A stretch of 64,000 nt of DNA from an uncultured Acidimicrobiales bacterium (GTDB lineage: Bacteria > Actinomycetota > Acidimicrobiia > Acidimicrobiales > SHLQ01), in NCBI GenBank assembly GCA_938038815.1, contig CALHTF010000032.1:62001-126000 (forward strand), given 5' to 3'. The notes beneath the pieces were generated by a model. The model did no database searches. It was given only the letters and a program-made list of their open reading frames with translations, and was not told the origin of the DNA. A program made the position numbers and the translations under genes. Positions within the stretch are counted from its first letter, which is position 1, and each line of letters opens with the position of its first letter. This document shows positions 1,391-64,000 of this stretch, one piece after another.

Positions 1391-2428
1391 ATGGAATCAC
1401 TACCTCGATACCGCACGGGCGACGAAGGTCTCGACCGCGCAATTTCAGAGATCATTGAGCTCAGCGGCGCCGCCGATGACCACGACATGTTGTTCGAGAC
1501 CATCGTCTCGACGCTGCGCATGGGTCGCGAGCGGGTTGGGCGAGGCGATCTCAAGCTCGTCAACGCGGCGCTGAAAGAACTTCGCTACGCATTCCTGGTC
1601 TTTGAGCCGTACCGAAACTCCAAGAAGTGCACCATCTTCGGATCGGCTCGCACCCAGCCGTCGGAGGCCTCCTACGTGTGCGCTCGCGACTTTGGCGAGG
1701 CAATGGCCGCCCAAGACTGGATGGTCATGACCGGAGCCGGACCCGGCATTATGGCCGCCGGCCTCGAAGGCGCAGGCACCGAAAACAGCTTCGGCATCAA
1801 CATCCAGCTGCCGTTTGAGTCGGGAGCCAACGAGTTCATCGCCGGCGACCCCAAGCTCATCAACTTCCGGTACTTCTTCACCCGCAAACTCACCTTCATG
1901 AAGGAGTCGCACGGCTACGCCCTGCTTCCCGGTGGCTTCGGCACCATGGACGAGGCGTTCGAGCTGCTGACGCTGATGCAAACCGGCAAGACCTTCCTCG
2001 CGCCGGTCGTGCTTCTCGACCCGCCAGGCAACTCCTACTGGGATACCTGGAAGGACTTCGTAACCAGCGAGCTGCTGGGCCAGAACCTGATCAGCGAATC
2101 CGACCTCGACCTGGTGTACCTGACCGACGATGTCGACGCCGGGGTCGCCGAGATATGCAAGTTCTACAACAGCTACCACTCGTGCCGGTACGTCGGGAAC
2201 CGACTCATCATGCGCCTCACCCGCGAGCTCTCCGACAACGAAATCGCCGATCTCAACAACGAGTTCGGCGACATGCTCGAAGAAGGTCAGATCGAGCGAA
2301 CCGAAGTCACCAAGAGCGAACTCGACGACAACGACAGTGTCGACCTGCATCGGCTCGGCATGCGCTTTAACCGCATGTCCCATGCCCGGCTGCGCCAGAT
2401 GGTCGACGTCATCAACGAAACGGCCTAA
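1391..2428 (+). CDS. LOG-family (TIGR00730) Rossmann-fold nucleotide phosphoribohydrolase-like protein
   Basis: The protein has 345 residues. The family signature is clear: GAGPGIM at about 115-121 and PGGFGTMDE at 180-188, the PGGxGTxxE motif of LOG/cytokinin riboside 5'-monophosphate phosphoribohydrolases. It also carries the R/K-rich FFTRKLTFMKES segment found near the substrate site. Family members release the base from nucleoside monophosphates; the substrate here cannot be read from sequence. At 345 aa it is longer than the roughly 190-aa plant-like LOGs, with an extra N-terminal helical region (1-75) and an acidic C-terminal tail, as in actinobacterial long forms. Its stop overlaps the stop of the convergent small gene. 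Confidence 0.85.
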   Translation: MESLPRYRTGDEGLDRAISEIIELSGAADDHDMLFETIVSTLRMGRERVGRGDLKLVNAALKELRYAFLVFEPYRNSKKCTIFGSARTQPSEASYVCARDFGEAMAAQDWMVMTGAGPGIMAAGLEGAGTENSFGINIQLPFESGANEFIAGDPKLINFRYFFTRKLTFMKESHGYALLPGGFGTMDEAFELLTLMQTGKTFLAPVVLLDPPGNSYWDTWKDFVTSELLGQNLISESDLDLVYLTDDVDAGVAEICKFYNSYHSCRYVGNRLIMRLTRELSDNEIADLNNEFGDMLEEGQIERTEVTKSELDDNDSVDLHRLGMRFNRMSHARLRQMVDVINETA

Positions 2429-14599: not shown

Positions 14600-15367
14600 A
14601 TGGACGCCAACGATTTCGCCGACCGGCCCGGGACTGCTCTTGTCACTGGAGGGACCGGAGGTATCGGCGCAGCAATCTGCAAAATGCTGCATGCCCGCGG
14701 GGCAAAGGTCGCCTTTACCTACCGGTCGAATCATGAACGGGCGGCCGAGCTCCAGGCCGAGCTCGCACCTACCACCTACGGGCACTCGCTCGACCTCAAC
14801 GACTCCGAATCGGTCGCCGGATTTGTCGAAGGAGTGGTCGAACGGGTCGGCCCGATCCACACCCTGGTGCACGCCGCCGGACCAGAGGTGCGCCAAACCC
14901 ACCTCAGTAAGGTCAGCCCCGACCAATACCGAGAGGCGCTCGAGAACGAAGCTGCCGCCTTCTTTACCATCGCCCACCACGCACTCCCCCACCTGCGCGA
15001 GGCCAACGGCTCGCTCGTAGCCGTGACCACCGCAGCCACCCGCCGCTACCCGGTGCGAGACGGCCTGTCGTCGGGCACCAAAGCAGCGATCGAGGCAACC
15101 GTGAAAGGCCTCGCCGCCGAGGAAGGGCGCTTCGGGGTCCGAGCCAACTGTGTAGGGCCCGGCATGCTCACCGATGGCATGGCCGAACGCCTCATTGCCT
15201 CGGGCGAACTCGACGATGCAGCGCTCGACGTCACCCGAGCCAACATCCCGTTGCGCCGCTTCGGCCGCGCAACCGACATCGCCGAAGCGGTGTGCTTCCT
15301 CGCCTCGGACCGAGCAAACTTCATCACCGGCCAATGCCTAGACGTAGACGGCGGCTACACGGTCTAG
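14600..15367 (+). CDS. Short-chain dehydrogenase/reductase-like protein lacking the catalytic Tyr
   Basis: The protein has 255 residues and a FabG-like Rossmann fold. The cofactor motif TGGTGGIG (16-23), the HAAG motif (91-94) and a C-terminal DIAEAVCFLASDRANFITGQCLDVDGG match the classical SDR family. The active site is altered: the usual YxxxK reads S157-S-G-T-K161, and the catalytic Ser position, 13 residues earlier, is Thr144. The only nearby Tyr is Tyr150. It may therefore be a non-classical or inactive reductase; the substrate is unknown. It begins 30 nt after the orphan terminator and is followed by repeat copy A. Confidence 0.85.
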   Translation: MDANDFADRPGTALVTGGTGGIGAAICKMLHARGAKVAFTYRSNHERAAELQAELAPTTYGHSLDLNDSESVAGFVEGVVERVGPIHTLVHAAGPEVRQTHLSKVSPDQYREALENEAAAFFTIAHHALPHLREANGSLVAVTTAATRRYPVRDGLSSGTKAAIEATVKGLAAEEGRFGVRANCVGPGMLTDGMAERLIASGELDDAALDVTRANIPLRRFGRATDIAEAVCFLASDRANFITGQCLDVDGGYTV

Positions 15368-15444
15368 CTTGTTCCGCCCACGGCTCCACGCCTTCGGCAT
15401 CGGGCTCCACCGCCATCTCACCCTTGCTCCGACCCCTTCCGCAC

Positions 15445-15495
15445 ATTTTTCGCGTGGAACCCGCTCAGAGCGGGTCAAACGCGATCAGAATCCCG
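15445..15495 (-). repeat. Post-stop hairpin repeat, copy A
   Basis: Read on -, it starts with TTCTGATCGCG, forms a hairpin with a CCCGCT/AGCGGG core, and ends in CGCGAAAAAT. It begins about four nucleotides after the stop of the - zinc-ribbon gene, in that gene's orientation. It is one of four related copies (15445, 16225, 29594 and 63731). Confidence 0.7.
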
Positions 15496-15498
15496 TAC

Positions 15499-15723
15499 CT
15501 AGTCTTTGAGTGCCACGGCGTTGGGAGTGACGTTCATCTTTGGTTCGTAGGCGGCAGCGGTTACCTCGCGGGCCTCGCCGGCGTAGGTCGCCCGAAGCTC
15601 AGCCATGCAGCTCACACACGGGCCGTAGTACTCCTCGGTGACCGCCGTCGAGCACCGAGGGCAGTCAAAGGAATGCGGCTGGTTCGGCGCGCTCAAGAGT
15701 GAGTCGCTGGCGGTCTGTTCCAT
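15499..15723 (-). CDS. Small zinc-ribbon-like protein
   Basis: About 74 residues starting at MEQTASDSLL. Two CxxC pairs, Cys21-Cys24 (CPRC) and Cys36-Cys39 (CVSC), form a probable zinc ribbon around TAVTEEYYGP. The C-terminal half (AELRATYAGEAREVTAAAYEPKM) is probably helical. No function is known. I chose the ATG at 15723 because GGAAGG lies just ahead of it; the ATG at 15735 adds four residues. Confidence 0.65.
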   Translation of the reverse strand: MEQTASDSLLSAPNQPHSFDCPRCSTAVTEEYYGPCVSCMAELRATYAGEAREVTAAAYEPKMNVTPNAVALKD

Positions 15724-15735
15724 CTGGCCTTCCAT

Positions 15736-16028
15736 GGCATTGAACCTAGCCGCAGGAGCGCCCCCAAACCGTCACTTGTGTGCCTGAGCCAGGGTTTTTG
15801 GCTTTCCCACAGGATTCTGGGGGTTATCCACAGAACGTTCGACGATTTCCCCGAAATCTTTTCGATTTCCCGAACGTCTTCCTCTTCCTTCCCACAGGGC
15901 ACTTGGTCAACAATGAACTCACACCGCCCACCGGCAACAGCAACAGCAACAGCAACAACCCCACAAACAACACACCCCACTACACCCACAAGCAACACAC
16001 CCACAAACAAGTGAGACAGGAGCCAACC
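15736..16028. other. Intergenic leader with a TTATCCACA site and a CA-rich tract
   Basis: This interval holds a perfect DnaA-box-like TTATCCACA near 15825. Pyrimidine-rich segments with GATTTCC repeats lie at about 15845-15870. From about 15933 to 16011 there is a nearly G-free C/A-rich tract that begins with four CAACAG-type units. It ends at the AGGAG of the next gene, so it is probably an unstructured 5' untranslated leader. Confidence 0.5.
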
Positions 16029-16220
16029 ATGGCGAACTACCAAATCACCCTCCGAGACGGCGTCCGGGAGAACATCACCGAAGCCGATGCCTATTGCCAA
16101 GAAGGAACGATGACCACCTTCTTCAAGACCAGCACCGACCGTCGAGTCATCGACAGTTGGTCGACTCGGCTCGCCAGCTTTCGCACCACCGAGGTCATGA
16201 CCATCAAGCGTTGTCTCTAG
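16029..16220 (+). CDS. 63-aa hypothetical protein
   Basis: Sixty-three residues: a beta-rich N-terminus (MANYQITLRDGVRENI), then ADAYCQEGTMTTFF, and a basic C-terminus (SFRTTEVMTIKRCL). The ATG has an AGGAG six bases upstream, which makes the start convincing despite the small size. The mix of strands and polar residues suggests a small cytoplasmic domain; no family function is known to me. It is preceded by an unusual CA-rich leader and followed within ten bases by hairpin repeat copy B. Confidence 0.7.
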   Translation: MANYQITLRDGVRENITEADAYCQEGTMTTFFKTSTDRRVIDSWSTRLASFRTTEVMTIKRCL

Positions 16221-16224
16221 ATCC

Positions 16225-16280
16225 CAAGATCTGATCGCGTTTGACCCGCTTCAGGCGGGTCAAACGCGACAATTTCGGGA
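16225..16280 (+). repeat. Post-stop hairpin repeat, copy B
   Basis: A perfect 14-bp stem (16236-16249 with 16255-16268, loop TTCAG) is preceded by TCTGAT and followed by ACAATTTCGGGA. It begins directly after the 63-aa gene and points the same way. It is the best-paired member of the four-copy family and separates two convergent genes. Confidence 0.75.
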
Positions 16281-17270
16281 TCAGCAGGAGCGAATCTTCT
16301 TGCCTCGGTAGCAGGAGTCATCGCCGGGGCCGGGGCGGTAGCGGTCTTTGCCTGGCCCGCCCTTCAACCGGTCGTCACCGTCGCCGCCCCGCAGCACGTC
16401 ACGGCCCGGACCGCCCTTGAGAACGTCGTTCCCCTCTTCGCCGACAACCACGTCATCGCCGCCGCCGCCGAGAACAGTGTCGTTTCCGGCCTCACCGTTG
16501 AGGGTCTCCGATGCATCGCTACCGATGATGGTGTCGTCGCCTTCGCCACCGATGCTCCACGGGAAACTGTTCTCGATATTGAAGAGACCACTCAGGTGAT
16601 CATTGCCTTCCCGACCAAACTGATGGTTTCCACCGACAATCGTGTCGTTGCCCGGCCCGCCATCGAGATCCCAGTGCCCGCCAAGCTTTTCCAGCTCGGA
16701 AGCCTCTTCATCGGTGAGCTCGACGGTCAGCAGGTCGTCGCCATCACCGCCGTTCAGCCAGTCTGGCAAGGAGAACCAGCACTCATCGATCGTTTCGATG
16801 ACCCAGGTCATCGTGTCGTCGCCTTCGCCGCCGGTCATCTGCCCCATACCGGACATCGTGTCGTTCCCCTCCTCACCGTGGAGGTGCTTCTCCGAATATG
16901 CCGGACGCTCCTGGCCCTCACAAGTGACGTCGGTGGTGATGATGTCGTCACCTGCTCCGCCGCCAACCCACCCCTTCCCGGGGCCATCGTTGATGAGGTC
17001 GTCTCCATCGCCGCCACAGATGATGTCGTATCCGCCGAGTCCGTTGATTACGTCGTCGTCTGGCGTGCCCAAGATGACGTCGTCACCTTCGGTGGGCAGT
17101 TCGCCGGCCGCGAGGTCGACGGTCACGCCTATCCGTTTGCAATTCGGCGCTGCATGTTGACTCCTTTGCGCCTCCGCCGGAGCGCCGGGCAGCACCAGCA
17201 CCGCGGCCAGCATGGCCACAAAAACGCCTAAAGTGAGCGCCGACTTCGGTTGAGACAGCAGGGGGGACAT
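16281..17270 (-). CDS. Secreted RTX-like calcium-binding repeat protein
   Basis: The protein has 329 residues with an N-terminal signal peptide (LTLGVFVAMLAAVLVLPGAPAEAQ). Many GGxGxDxI/L-type nonapeptides of the hemolysin Ca-binding class follow, such as GGDGDDLI, GGEGDDTM, GGDGDDLL and GGPGNDTI. A final block of back-to-back repeats (GGGGDDVV, GGPGRDVL, GGDGDDRL) lies at about 265-310. It has no catalytic domain. Scattered Cys, including a C-terminal RSC, suggest disulfides. It is probably a Ca-stabilised beta-roll at the cell surface or released; its role is unknown. Confidence 0.8.
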   Translation of the reverse strand: MSPLLSQPKSALTLGVFVAMLAAVLVLPGAPAEAQRSQHAAPNCKRIGVTVDLAAGELPTEGDDVILGTPDDDVINGLGGYDIICGGDGDDLINDGPGKGWVGGGAGDDIITTDVTCEGQERPAYSEKHLHGEEGNDTMSGMGQMTGGEGDDTMTWVIETIDECWFSLPDWLNGGDGDDLLTVELTDEEASELEKLGGHWDLDGGPGNDTIVGGNHQFGREGNDHLSGLFNIENSFPWSIGGEGDDTIIGSDASETLNGEAGNDTVLGGGGDDVVVGEEGNDVLKGGPGRDVLRGGDGDDRLKGGPGKDRYRPGPGDDSCYRGKKIRSC

Positions 17271-28538: not shown

Positions 28539-29582
28539 ATGCATCGCCTCGTCCTCGCCTGTCTTTTGCTTTTGGCATTAGCTGCTTCGGCCTGCGCGTC
28601 GACGACCCCGAGCGCCGCGACCGAGGTCCAGGACCCGCCACCCAAGACCGTCGCTGCGACCACCACCACCGAGGACGAACCCGAAACCATCACCACGACC
28701 GAAGCACCCGAGTCCGACGACGACGATGACGTCGAACCGGAAGAACCTCCGGTTGAAGAATGGCTGCTGCTCGATGGCGACAAACGAGCCGAGACCCCCG
28801 ATTCGGCCTCTCGTTACGTGGTCACCTACTACGGCGACAGCCTGGCGTCGTCGGCCCAGGAATGGGTAGGCACCTACCTCGATCTCGGTGGCCGGATCCG
28901 GTTCCGTCCCTCAACCTTCCCCGGCTCAGCGATCTGCGACTGGAACGGCGCGTTCGAGCGCGACATCGCCCGGTTCGACATTTGGGCCACCGTCATCTTG
29001 TTCTCGAACAACACCTTCACCGATTGCATGAAGGATGATTCCGGCGAGCCGCTCAACGACCAAGCAGCGATCCGCAAGTTCCGGGTCGACCTCAACCGGG
29101 TGATCGAACTATTCGAGGACGAGGGCACCACCGTGTACTTGCCGACCATCCCCGAATCTCGTGGCGACATCATCAACGAGGTCGAGCCCTCGTTGCTGCT
29201 GAACCGCATCTTTGCCGAGAGCGCCGACAAGTACGACCACGTGCTGTTGGTCGATGCCGCGGCGGCGGTGCTCGACGAGAACGGCCGGTACACCGAAACC
29301 TTGCCGTGCCTGCCGGTCGAGCCCTGCACCGGCGGTGTCGACGAAAATGGTGTGCCGGTCAACCTGGTGCGCGAGTGGGACGGCGTGCACTTCTGCAGCG
29401 GCGGATACGCCCCCAACCTGGCACCCGACGTCGGCAACTGCCCCTCCTGGTCGAGCGGCGCCTACCGGTACGCCGGAGCGCTCACCGCGCCGATCATCGA
29501 AGCAGCCCAAAAGGCATGGGTCACCGACAACCCCCCAGCAAAGATCTTCGACCCAATAGTCACCGACCGCCCCACCGAATAA
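28539..29582 (+). CDS. Secreted SGNH-hydrolase-like lipoprotein
   Basis: The protein has 347 residues. The signal peptide ends in a lipobox (LAASAC, Cys19), followed by a Thr/Glu/Asp-rich linker to about residue 75. The SGNH domain shows the nucleophile GDS at 99-101 (VVTYYGDSLASS) and the C-terminal catalytic pair Asp281/His284 in EWDGVHF. Four or more Cys in the domain could form disulfides. It probably removes or transfers acyl groups on the surface glycan made by the upstream operon. A 72-nt gap with a repeated CCAACACTG precedes it, so it may have its own promoter. Confidence 0.8.
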   Translation: MHRLVLACLLLLALAASACASTTPSAATEVQDPPPKTVAATTTTEDEPETITTTEAPESDDDDDVEPEEPPVEEWLLLDGDKRAETPDSASRYVVTYYGDSLASSAQEWVGTYLDLGGRIRFRPSTFPGSAICDWNGAFERDIARFDIWATVILFSNNTFTDCMKDDSGEPLNDQAAIRKFRVDLNRVIELFEDEGTTVYLPTIPESRGDIINEVEPSLLLNRIFAESADKYDHVLLVDAAAAVLDENGRYTETLPCLPVEPCTGGVDENGVPVNLVREWDGVHFCSGGYAPNLAPDVGNCPSWSSGAYRYAGALTAPIIEAAQKAWVTDNPPAKIFDPIVTDRPTE

Positions 29583-29593
29583 CCCCCAACCCC

Positions 29594-29649
29594 CGAAATT
29601 TTCGTAGTTGAGCCGCGCTGCGCGGTTCAACTGCAATCAGAATCCGGGG
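29594..29649 (-). repeat. Post-stop hairpin repeat, copy C
   Basis: Read on -, ATTCTGATTGC leads into the stem GTTGAACCGCG/CGCGGCTCAAC (one mismatch) and ends in ACGAAAATTTCGGGG. It lies directly after the stop of the - acyltransferase-SGNH gene and has the same orientation. It divides two convergent genes. Confidence 0.7.
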
Positions 29650-29656
29650 GGTTTGG

Positions 29657-31768
29657 TTACCGGTCGAGGAATTCTCGGGCGATGTGTGCTTCTCGGGCGA
29701 CGTCTTGGGCCAGCGAATTGTTCACAAATTCGCTGAAGTGCAGACCATCTTCGCGAGCCTCGGGATCGTCACGAACGTCTTGGGTGAACTCGCCGTTATC
29801 GCACACCTCTTCGTAGAGGTCGAAGAGGCGAACACCGGGTCCGCCTTCGTCGACCACCCGACGGATCGCCTCGTTCACCCGCTCGACGGCGGTCGGCAAG
29901 ATACCGAGTTCCTCAGCTTTTGTGGGTTCGATGCACGGAATCGTCATCCACACGACCGCCACGTCTTGATCGAGGAAATGCTCGGTCATCGACCGATAGT
30001 CGTTCTCGACCCGCTCGACGAACGAATCGTTGGTGGGCACATCGAACTCGTCGTCCGGGTCGAACCGACGAGGCAGCAGATCGACCGGGGCTCCGGCAAA
30101 TACGATCGCCTGGGCCCCAGCGCTATCGACCGCACCCTGGGCCGACTCGTTATCTTGGCGACACGCCGGTCGAATGGCGTCGAACCACTGCGCTTCGCCA
30201 CCAAAGGCCAGGCCGCAACCACCAAAGGTTGCGTTGCCAACGGCGGACAGATCGAGCGCCTCAGCCCGGCGCGACAGACCGTTAAACAAGTCGAAGGCAA
30301 CCGAGTCGCCGACCACGGCGAGCACCGGTTCGGGTTCGGCCAAGGTCGGTGGAGCGGTCGTGGTGGTGGCCGGTACCGTGGTGCCCGTTTCGGCCTCGCC
30401 AGGGTCATCCCCGGGATCATCTTCTACGTTGGGAGCAACGGTGGTTTTCGGCACGGTCACCGTCGTGACGTCGGCCGACTCCTCGAACTCAAACTCAGGT
30501 TCAACGTCGCGGCCAATGTCGGAGTACGCAACGCCCATACCGACCAAGAAGAAGGCAGAAGCGCCCACGGCGAGCAGCGGCGAAGCCACCTTGAGACCGG
30601 GACGGGTGCCACGGCGGATCGGGTCTTCGAGGTAGTGGTACGACACCCAAGCGAACGCAAACGTCAACGCCATCCGCACGACAAACAACGGCCAGATCGA
30701 CAGCCCGGTCGAGTCTTCGTCGACCCAGCGAAAGATCGGCCAGTGGTACAGGTAGGCGCCGTAGGAGATTGCCCCGAGCCAACGCAGCGGCCGCAGGCTC
30801 AAGAAGGCCACCACCGGCCCCGTCGACTGGGTCGATGCATAGATCAGCGCACCGGTGATGACGCCGTAGATAAGCAGTCCGCCGTTGAGCAACAGCGGTG
30901 TGGCGAGGTCGAAAACCACCCAGCTGATGAACGACAGCACAAGGCCGATGGCACCAAGGCCCATAATCGCCGGACTCGACGTAATTGCTTGCCGGCCCTT
31001 CTTGCTGGCGAACCCGACCGCCATCAGGGCACCGATCAGGATCTCGGCGGCCCGAACGTCGGTGCCGTTGTAGATCCGGTCGAAGCCTTCGAGAAAGAAT
31101 GGTGTGGCGGCCGACGCTGCGAGGGCCACCGCAAGCACGATGCCGAACGCCTTCTTCGATAGGTTCATCCGGCTCAGCAGCATCATGGCGATCAGTGGGA
31201 AGAACACATAGAACTGCTCTTCCACCGACAACGACCAGAAGTGAGCGGCCGGGCTGGCATCGCCGCCTTCGTCGAAGAGGTTCTCGTAACCCGCACCCTC
31301 AGGAGGGAACGCAAAGCGCCAGTTGGCGACGTAGACCAGCGCCGCCAGGAGGTCGCCGTTGAGTCGGTCGAGTACCCCGGTTCCAGTGAAGTTGGCCTCG
31401 CCGGCGGTGAGCTTGTCGAGCAGGTTCCAGAAGATGAAGATCAGGCCAATCGCCACTACTGCGGCTGGCATGAGGCGCTTGAACCGCCGGACCCAGAAGG
31501 CACCGAGGGCGATATTGCCGTCGCGTTCTTGTTCGGCCAGGAGCAACGACGTGATCAAGAAGCCCGAAAGGGTGAAGAAGGTCGACACGCCGAGATAGCC
31601 ACCGGTCGCCCAGGTAAAGCCACCGTGGAACACCAAAACCGCGGCGACGGCCAGGCCTCGCAGTCCGTCGAGGGCGGGAAAATGCGGGAACCGGTTGAGG
31701 TCGCTTAGAGCGTCAGCTTTCGACGGTTCAGCAGCGGACGCGGTGGTGGTTGAGGTGTCGGCGGACAT
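29657..31768 (-). CDS. Acyltransferase 3 - SGNH fusion (OafB/OatA-like O-acyltransferase)
   Basis: About 703 residues. The N-terminal acyltransferase-3 domain has HFPALDGLRGLAVAAVLVFHGG with the catalytic His, STFFTLSGFLITSLLL, RRFKRLMPAAVV and HFWSLSVEEQFYVFFPL. About ten helices precede residue 415. A Thr/Glu linker (about 420-470) leads to a periplasmic SGNH domain with VVGDSVAFDLFN and a closing DGLHF catalytic pair. This architecture O-acetylates surface polysaccharide or peptidoglycan. It is convergent with the SGNH lipoprotein, whose catalytic His motif (WDGVHF) is alike, so both may act on one glycan. The ATG at 31768 is preferred over the GTG one codon upstream. Confidence 0.88.
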   Translation of the reverse strand: MSADTSTTTASAAEPSKADALSDLNRFPHFPALDGLRGLAVAAVLVFHGGFTWATGGYLGVSTFFTLSGFLITSLLLAEQERDGNIALGAFWVRRFKRLMPAAVVAIGLIFIFWNLLDKLTAGEANFTGTGVLDRLNGDLLAALVYVANWRFAFPPEGAGYENLFDEGGDASPAAHFWSLSVEEQFYVFFPLIAMMLLSRMNLSKKAFGIVLAVALAASAATPFFLEGFDRIYNGTDVRAAEILIGALMAVGFASKKGRQAITSSPAIMGLGAIGLVLSFISWVVFDLATPLLLNGGLLIYGVITGALIYASTQSTGPVVAFLSLRPLRWLGAISYGAYLYHWPIFRWVDEDSTGLSIWPLFVVRMALTFAFAWVSYHYLEDPIRRGTRPGLKVASPLLAVGASAFFLVGMGVAYSDIGRDVEPEFEFEESADVTTVTVPKTTVAPNVEDDPGDDPGEAETGTTVPATTTTAPPTLAEPEPVLAVVGDSVAFDLFNGLSRRAEALDLSAVGNATFGGCGLAFGGEAQWFDAIRPACRQDNESAQGAVDSAGAQAIVFAGAPVDLLPRRFDPDDEFDVPTNDSFVERVENDYRSMTEHFLDQDVAVVWMTIPCIEPTKAEELGILPTAVERVNEAIRRVVDEGGPGVRLFDLYEEVCDNGEFTQDVRDDPEAREDGLHFSEFVNNSLAQDVAREAHIAREFLDR

Positions 31769-32999: not shown

Positions 33000-33017
33000 C
33001 CGCTCATTTGAATATTT

Positions 33018-33032
33018 CGGGGCCAGGCCCCG
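33018..33032. terminator. Palindromic hairpin between convergent genes
   Basis: CGGGGCC and GGCCCCG flank a single A, with AATATTT on the left side. It lies between the stops at 32999 (+) and 33034 (-) and probably terminates the - gene, whose transcript would continue into an A/T-rich stretch. A related 13-mer, GGCCAGGCCCCGG, recurs at 44752-44764 after another stop. Confidence 0.5.
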
Positions 33033-33033
33033 G

Positions 33034-44742: not shown

Positions 44743-44816
44743 ACAGCAACGAGGCCAGGCCCCGGATTGCCCATTTGGACACCCGAAGCCTGGCCGTGGT
44801 TACTGGTGGAGGAACG

Positions 44817-63508: not shown

Positions 63509-63730
63509 GCTCGTTCGAAAATGGAGATACACCCAGGAAATCCTTGTTGCGGTTCCGCCCGCAGCGGACCAATCTATCGCCGCTCAAGCCCTAAGGGACC
63601 TCACCAGCCCAAATCTGTCAAACCCGGCCTTTTTGGTCGGTCGCTCGCAAGCTCGCTCCCTCTGCGCTTCGCTATGACGCTCAACCTGTGCCCCTCGCCC
63701 TCCGCGAGCTCCGGGCTCTTTGCCTTATTC

Positions 63731-63790
63731 CCCTTGAAATTTTCGCGCTTGACTGGCTCTTAGCGGGTTAAGCGCGATCAGAAACTGGGT
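63731..63790 (-). repeat. Post-stop hairpin repeat, copy D
   Basis: Read on -, TTTCTGATCGCGCTTAACCC leads into a partly paired arm (CGCGCTT/AAGCGCG outer stem, 63744-63750 with 63770-63776) and ends in CGCGAAAATTTCAAGGGG. It begins directly after the stop of the edge M23 gene and has its orientation. Confidence 0.65.
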
Positions 63791-64000
63791 TTACAGGTAT
63801 TCGAGGGGGTTTACCGGGGCGCCGCCTTGTCGGATTTCGAAATGCAGGTGTGGCCCGGTTGACGCGCCGGTTGAGCCAACATCGCCAACCCGGTTGCCCG
63901 CCGAAACTTCGGCGCCGACGCTGGTGCGGATCGCCGACATGTGGCAGTACACCGAGGTCAACCCGCCACCGTGGCTGATCATCACCGTGTTGCCGCAGTT
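63791..64000 (-). CDS. M23 (LytM) endopeptidase, C-terminal end; partial at right edge
   Basis: The last 69 residues of a second LytM protein are visible. They include [22 protein letters not shown] and the zinc motif [12 protein letters not shown], closing with NPLEYL. The frame runs off the window edge, so its N-terminus is unknown. It resembles the neighbouring M23 protein closely over this stretch, which suggests tandem duplication. A 282-nt spacer with repeat copy D lies between them. Confidence 0.85.

Follow-up and report, generated by a model that had tools for sequence, protein, structure and literature searches.

Our results suggested that the hairpin found four times in the 64-kb window (the whole stretch of 64,000 nucleotides of an uncultured Acidimicrobiales bacterium analysed here) probably represents a REP-like family, a short non-autonomous palindrome that spread recently in one Acidimicrobiales lineage. 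It is a previously undescribed family of a known repeat kind.

The first-pass annotation had placed four copies in the window, and a covariance-model search recovered all of them within a few nucleotides of those places (Table 1; 51.7-69.5 bits, E from 3.9e-10 to 2.6e-14), each with the common head, hairpin stem and tail that had been described. The model was made from 29 genome copies, including the 29594 and 63735 copies; the 15442 and 16219 copies were left out and nevertheless scored E = 3.9e-10 and 5.2e-13, respectively. The next-best matches in the window were the same stems read on the reverse strand (E from 2e-5 to 0.03) or noise (E of 1). Rfam gave no gathering match in the window and no match with E<=1 at 15300-16400. 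In the 16219 copy the 15-bp stem is fully paired, with an outer GATCCC/GGGATC pair besides, and its RNA fold reaches -43.3 kcal/mol (z -9).

Table 1. Coordinates of the hairpin copies, of the second repeat and of the repeats at the Y1 genes of the same genome (window positions, except where a locus is named)
Feature	Position	Strand	Remarks
Hairpin copy	15442-15500	-	CCCGC/GCGGG type; 51.7 bits, E 3.9e-10 (cmsearch over the window)
Hairpin copy	16219-16277	+	64.0 bits, E 5.2e-13 (cmsearch over the window)
Hairpin copy	29594-29652	-	TGCA-type stem; 60.7 bits, E 3e-12 (cmsearch over the window)
Hairpin copy	63735-63793	-	69.5 bits, E 2.6e-14 (cmsearch over the window)
Second dispersed repeat, AAAGAGCCCGGAGCTCGCGGAGGGCGAGGGGC...ATAGCGAAGCGCAG...	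63630-63721	-	3' limit approximate, read from the alignment
Y1 gene L133	L133:1190-1256 and 1944-2062		13-bp tandem repeats TGGAGCCTGGCAC
Y1 gene L134	L134:914-976 and 1908-1970		long self-complementary inverted repeats
Y1 gene L135	L135:979-1016 and 1897-1934		long self-complementary inverted repeats

All four window copies lie 8-15 nt behind a stop codon and follow genes unrelated to each other, two points on which the annotation was right. The 15442 copy starts 9 nt past the stop of a 78-aa zinc-ribbon gene (15499-15735, -), and the 63735 copy 8 nt past that of an M23-type ORF (63791-63982, -). Convergent genes enclose the 16219 copy (16029-16220, +, and 16281-17126, -) and the 29594 copy (28539-29582, +, and 29657-31768, -, an acyltransferase). 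As a G+C-rich hairpin directly behind stops, between convergent genes, the repeat resembles an intrinsic (Rho-independent) terminator. However, no copy has a T-tract on either strand, in agreement with the missing U-tract reported before; one strand has AAAATTTCGGGG as its tail and the opposite strand ATCAGAA. Moreover, no terminator-like site was present at the 15442 and 16219 copies.

The covariance-model scan proposed in the annotation gave about 103 full-length matches in the 4.58-Mb metagenome-assembled genome, representing at least 102 distinct copies, a lower bound from 150 scored candidates in an assembly that is 92% complete. Ninety-seven of the 102 are exactly 47 nt long and consist of TCTGAT, a stem of 15 bp closed by a loop of 5 nt, and AAATTTC, positions 6-20 pairing with 26-40. 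The unpaired ends, TCTGA and AAATTTC, are near-invariant over these 97 copies, and several stem subtypes coexist (CCCGC in 43, TGCA in 33, others in 20). A search with the core pattern TCTGATNGC...CGAAAATTTC found 52 matches in the 4.58-Mb genome, against none in the reversed control. Although a range of lengths was permitted, 51 of the 52 measured 47 nt. Dimers are rare. The hairpin is commonly flanked by AACCC(C) on one side and GGGG on the other, also at copies without an adjacent stop codon; because of these flanks the exact edges of the element are uncertain, and no target-site duplication was demonstrated.

The 63735 copy is a composite with a AAAGAGCCCGG repeat, this second repeat coming after the hairpin. 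About 10-11 of the aligned hairpin copies, 63735 among them, are followed by the AAAGAGCCCGGAGCTCGCGGAGGGCGAGGGGC... repeat (the 11 alignment rows include one tandem hairpin pair sharing a single AAAGAGCCCGGAGCTCGCGGAGGGCGAGGGGC copy). With an exact core, the AAAGAGCCCGGAGCTCGCGGAGGGCGAGGGGC... repeat occurs at 20 places in the genome, at some of them without a hairpin. Other repeats were seen in the window. GGCCAGGCCCCGG, common to two hairpin-free convergent spacers (window 33000-33033 and 44743-44816), is possibly another intergenic repeat. One more, about 38 nt long, lies at window 15369-15407 and recurs with about 90% identity at many places in three congeners.

Next to the fixed ends, the stem changes but stays paired. 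In the first 29 copies, 86% of the stem cells were paired, 48 cells were changed on both sides (20 in shuffles), stem covariation was 0.356 versus 0.184 in shuffles, and shifting the pairing partners along the stem abolished pairing. The hairpin folds strongly on both strands, and the stem contains 77 G-U and 60 A-C cells, with the sense and antisense sets alike. Since these cells were the same whatever the context, there is no strand-specific tolerance of G-U in the stem, and strand-specific RNA selection was rejected. Hairpin correction during replication could also yield compensatory stem changes, and so could selection on an RNA.

The copies are sited non-randomly with respect to genes, which at the fetched loci were taken from a codon-usage gene caller with approximate gene starts. 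No copy was enclosed entirely by a called gene; the hairpin head or stem was overlapped by the ends of about 11 genes, and promoter-side spacers and coding sequence were avoided. Convergent neighbours enclosed 42 copies, codirectional ones 48 and divergent ones 6, against 8.7, 52 and 35 expected from window spacer length. Within the codirectional pairs, 32 of the 48 copies were <=15 nt from the stop, compared with 8.7 when each was placed at random in its own spacer (P about 1e-16), and only one was <=15 nt from a start. The copies in these pairs were antisense to both genes in 32 cases and sense to both in 16. The annotation had also stated that each copy points with its gene. This is true of the four in the window, where it tells little, since three of them lie between convergent genes and either orientation would qualify. 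Genome-wide it does not hold, because the stop-abutting copies in codirectional pairs were antisense in 23 cases and sense in 14 (two-sided p = 0.19), and the gene-oriented 3'-end element that had been suggested was rejected on these counts. On the sense side, the TGA of the head ends 6 genes and a stop inside the stem ends 5. On the antisense side, TAA is the stop in 47 of 59 cases, compared with 75 of 225 in genes distant from any copy, and is followed by a C-tract of variable length; this TAA-C-tract may be an edge of the element.

We then come to the distribution of the repeat. Copies whose cores are at least 95% identical have unrelated flanks (24-42% identity). Among the relatives, G002 carries 19 copies, G004 four and G006 one; the congeners G001 and G003 carry none, and a sample of 394 further genomes of the class contained no match to the core pattern. 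Stems of the G002 and G004 copies are mostly CCACC/GGTGG, the ends being unchanged. A pattern search of genome contigs gave matches in G002 (CALGZB01, uncultured Acidimicrobiales), G006 (CALHYX01) and eight unrelated singletons. The latter, together with one match in a viral contig, were rejected as close to the number due to chance, estimated from the information content of the pattern; the viral match has no stem either. At three window sites, the syntenic spacers located in congeners carry unrelated sequence and no hairpin: the comparison of the 15442 site covered G001 and G002, and for 29594-29652 the spacers of three congeners were empty. One of the empty sites, that of G003 (L180, syntenic to window 29583-29656), has a short tandem repeat of its own, of the CAGACAGTGCC type. 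Two sites common to G000 and G002 (L077/L145 and L072/L150) were set aside, since the neighbouring sequence differs on one side and leaves common descent unproven; locus L080, used for a second synteny comparison, had little conserved synteny. With copies in only a few relatives, none in two congeners and 394 genomes, and empty syntenic sites, the hairpins are in our judgement likely to be recently dispersed, non-autonomous REP-like palindromes. Presence and absence at syntenic sites is the behaviour of a mobile element. Of the possibilities raised in the annotation, restriction to a clade was thus confirmed, and the REP-like repeat gained support from the absence of copies in two congeners and at three syntenic sites.

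The genome encodes three Y1 transposases (Table 1), whose genes are flanked by other palindromes or by a 13-bp tandem repeat. None of the 14 Y1 loci in seven genomes (three own and 11 in relatives) has a hairpin copy within about 1.5 kb, and one of the three own Y1s has its closest relative in a genome that lacks the repeat. Since no copy lies beside any of the 14, a link to these transposases was rejected. L134 and L135, located between long palindromic inverted repeats, are reminiscent of TIRtrons (TIR-associated tyrosine transposase units), but those palindromes are not the hairpin repeat. At another locus, L105, a palindrome of the L134 type abuts a hairpin copy. Inverted pairs of copies (C49 and C28) were considered as transposon ends and rejected, as ordinary host genes lie in between.

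In the broad sense, the hairpin is a REP: a short palindrome in about 100 dispersed, extragenic, lineage-specific copies, placed behind coding regions near 3' ends, favouring convergent and codirectional pairs, with termini that provide stop codons and several stem subtypes that keep complementarity. For the GTAG and CGTC REPs described by Di Nocera and colleagues, convergent ones are separated by <20 bp from the 3' end of either gene, and stop codons can be supplied by the repeat termini (PMC3733652); the same authors reported no dedicated transposase for CGTC REPs. In contrast to these superfamilies, which have an unpaired tag at one end, nearly all 97 hairpin copies have TCTGA and AAATTTC ends and no GTAG or CGTC tag. 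The 15-bp stem in a 47-nt unit also differs from CGTC stems of 8-9 bp and from REPs of usually 20-40 bp. Furthermore, the copies are mostly singletons, none is beside the Y1/RAYT-like genes, and none of the 14 Y1 loci is flanked by the hairpin, whereas RAYT-mobilised REPs flank their RAYT gene.

We considered other explanations. A functional bidirectional 3'-end element, a U-tract-less terminator or RNA-stability hairpin that separates convergent transcripts and multiplied because it is useful, would account for the very tight siting behind stops, the strong folds from both strands, the fixed 47-nt length, the head and tail kept while the stem drifts, and the antisense-side TAA and C-tract. 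We regard it as unlikely, since only about 100 copies serve several thousand genes, two congeners do without any, the syntenic sites are empty with unrelated spacers, orientation is indifferent, and the 15442 and 16219 copies have no terminator-like site.

Much less probable still is the gene-oriented element in the form of a site on the sense transcript that is bound by a riboregulator or a strand-specific RNA-binding protein. The near-invariant head and tail and the alignment of the four window copies with a gene would fit it, but the antisense and sense counts in codirectional pairs, which show orientation to be random relative to transcription genome-wide, and the equal G-U and A-C behaviour of sense and antisense sets speak against it. 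Similarly, we give very little credence to a MITE with AACCCC...GGGGTT terminal repeats moved by a conventional DDE transposase rather than by a hairpin-recognising one. The flanks do occur where no stop adjoins; however, their pairing as an outer, copy-specific stem was rejected (10.6 observed versus 10.4 by permutation), their lengths vary, target duplication was not seen, and a non-systematic look met no DDE element with such ends.

For the recently dispersed REP-like family, we infer a hairpin-recognising enzyme, given that the unpaired ends are conserved and that the stem drifts yet stays paired. This enzyme would act in trans to copy the element, probably recognising the single-stranded hairpin together with its unpaired ends, and copies would persist mainly where they are least harmful, a few nucleotides behind stop codons. 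Once settled, a copy would be transcribed from either strand as a stable 3' hairpin, which could slow 3' exonucleases, opposing polymerases or ribosomes at the stop, effects reported for REPs of E. coli. At the end of the mRNA, a copy may plausibly act on physiology; E. coli REPs located <=15 nt from the stop are reported to stall ribosomes (discussed in PMC12306157). Tentatively, and with more doubt than conviction, the hairpins might form an untagged Acidimicrobiales REP superfamily whose mover is some enzyme other than a linked RAYT, co-opted as a bidirectional boundary of convergent genes and supplying stop codons to host genes.

The family is sharply defined, lies outside both tagged superfamilies and comes from a poorly studied actinobacterial order. 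For gene callers and searches for RNA elements it carries a caution, that covarying hairpins adjacent to stops are not necessarily gene-oriented regulatory RNAs. It also offers a natural case for asking what moves REPs that carry no tag, and why repeats of this sort come to lie right behind stops.
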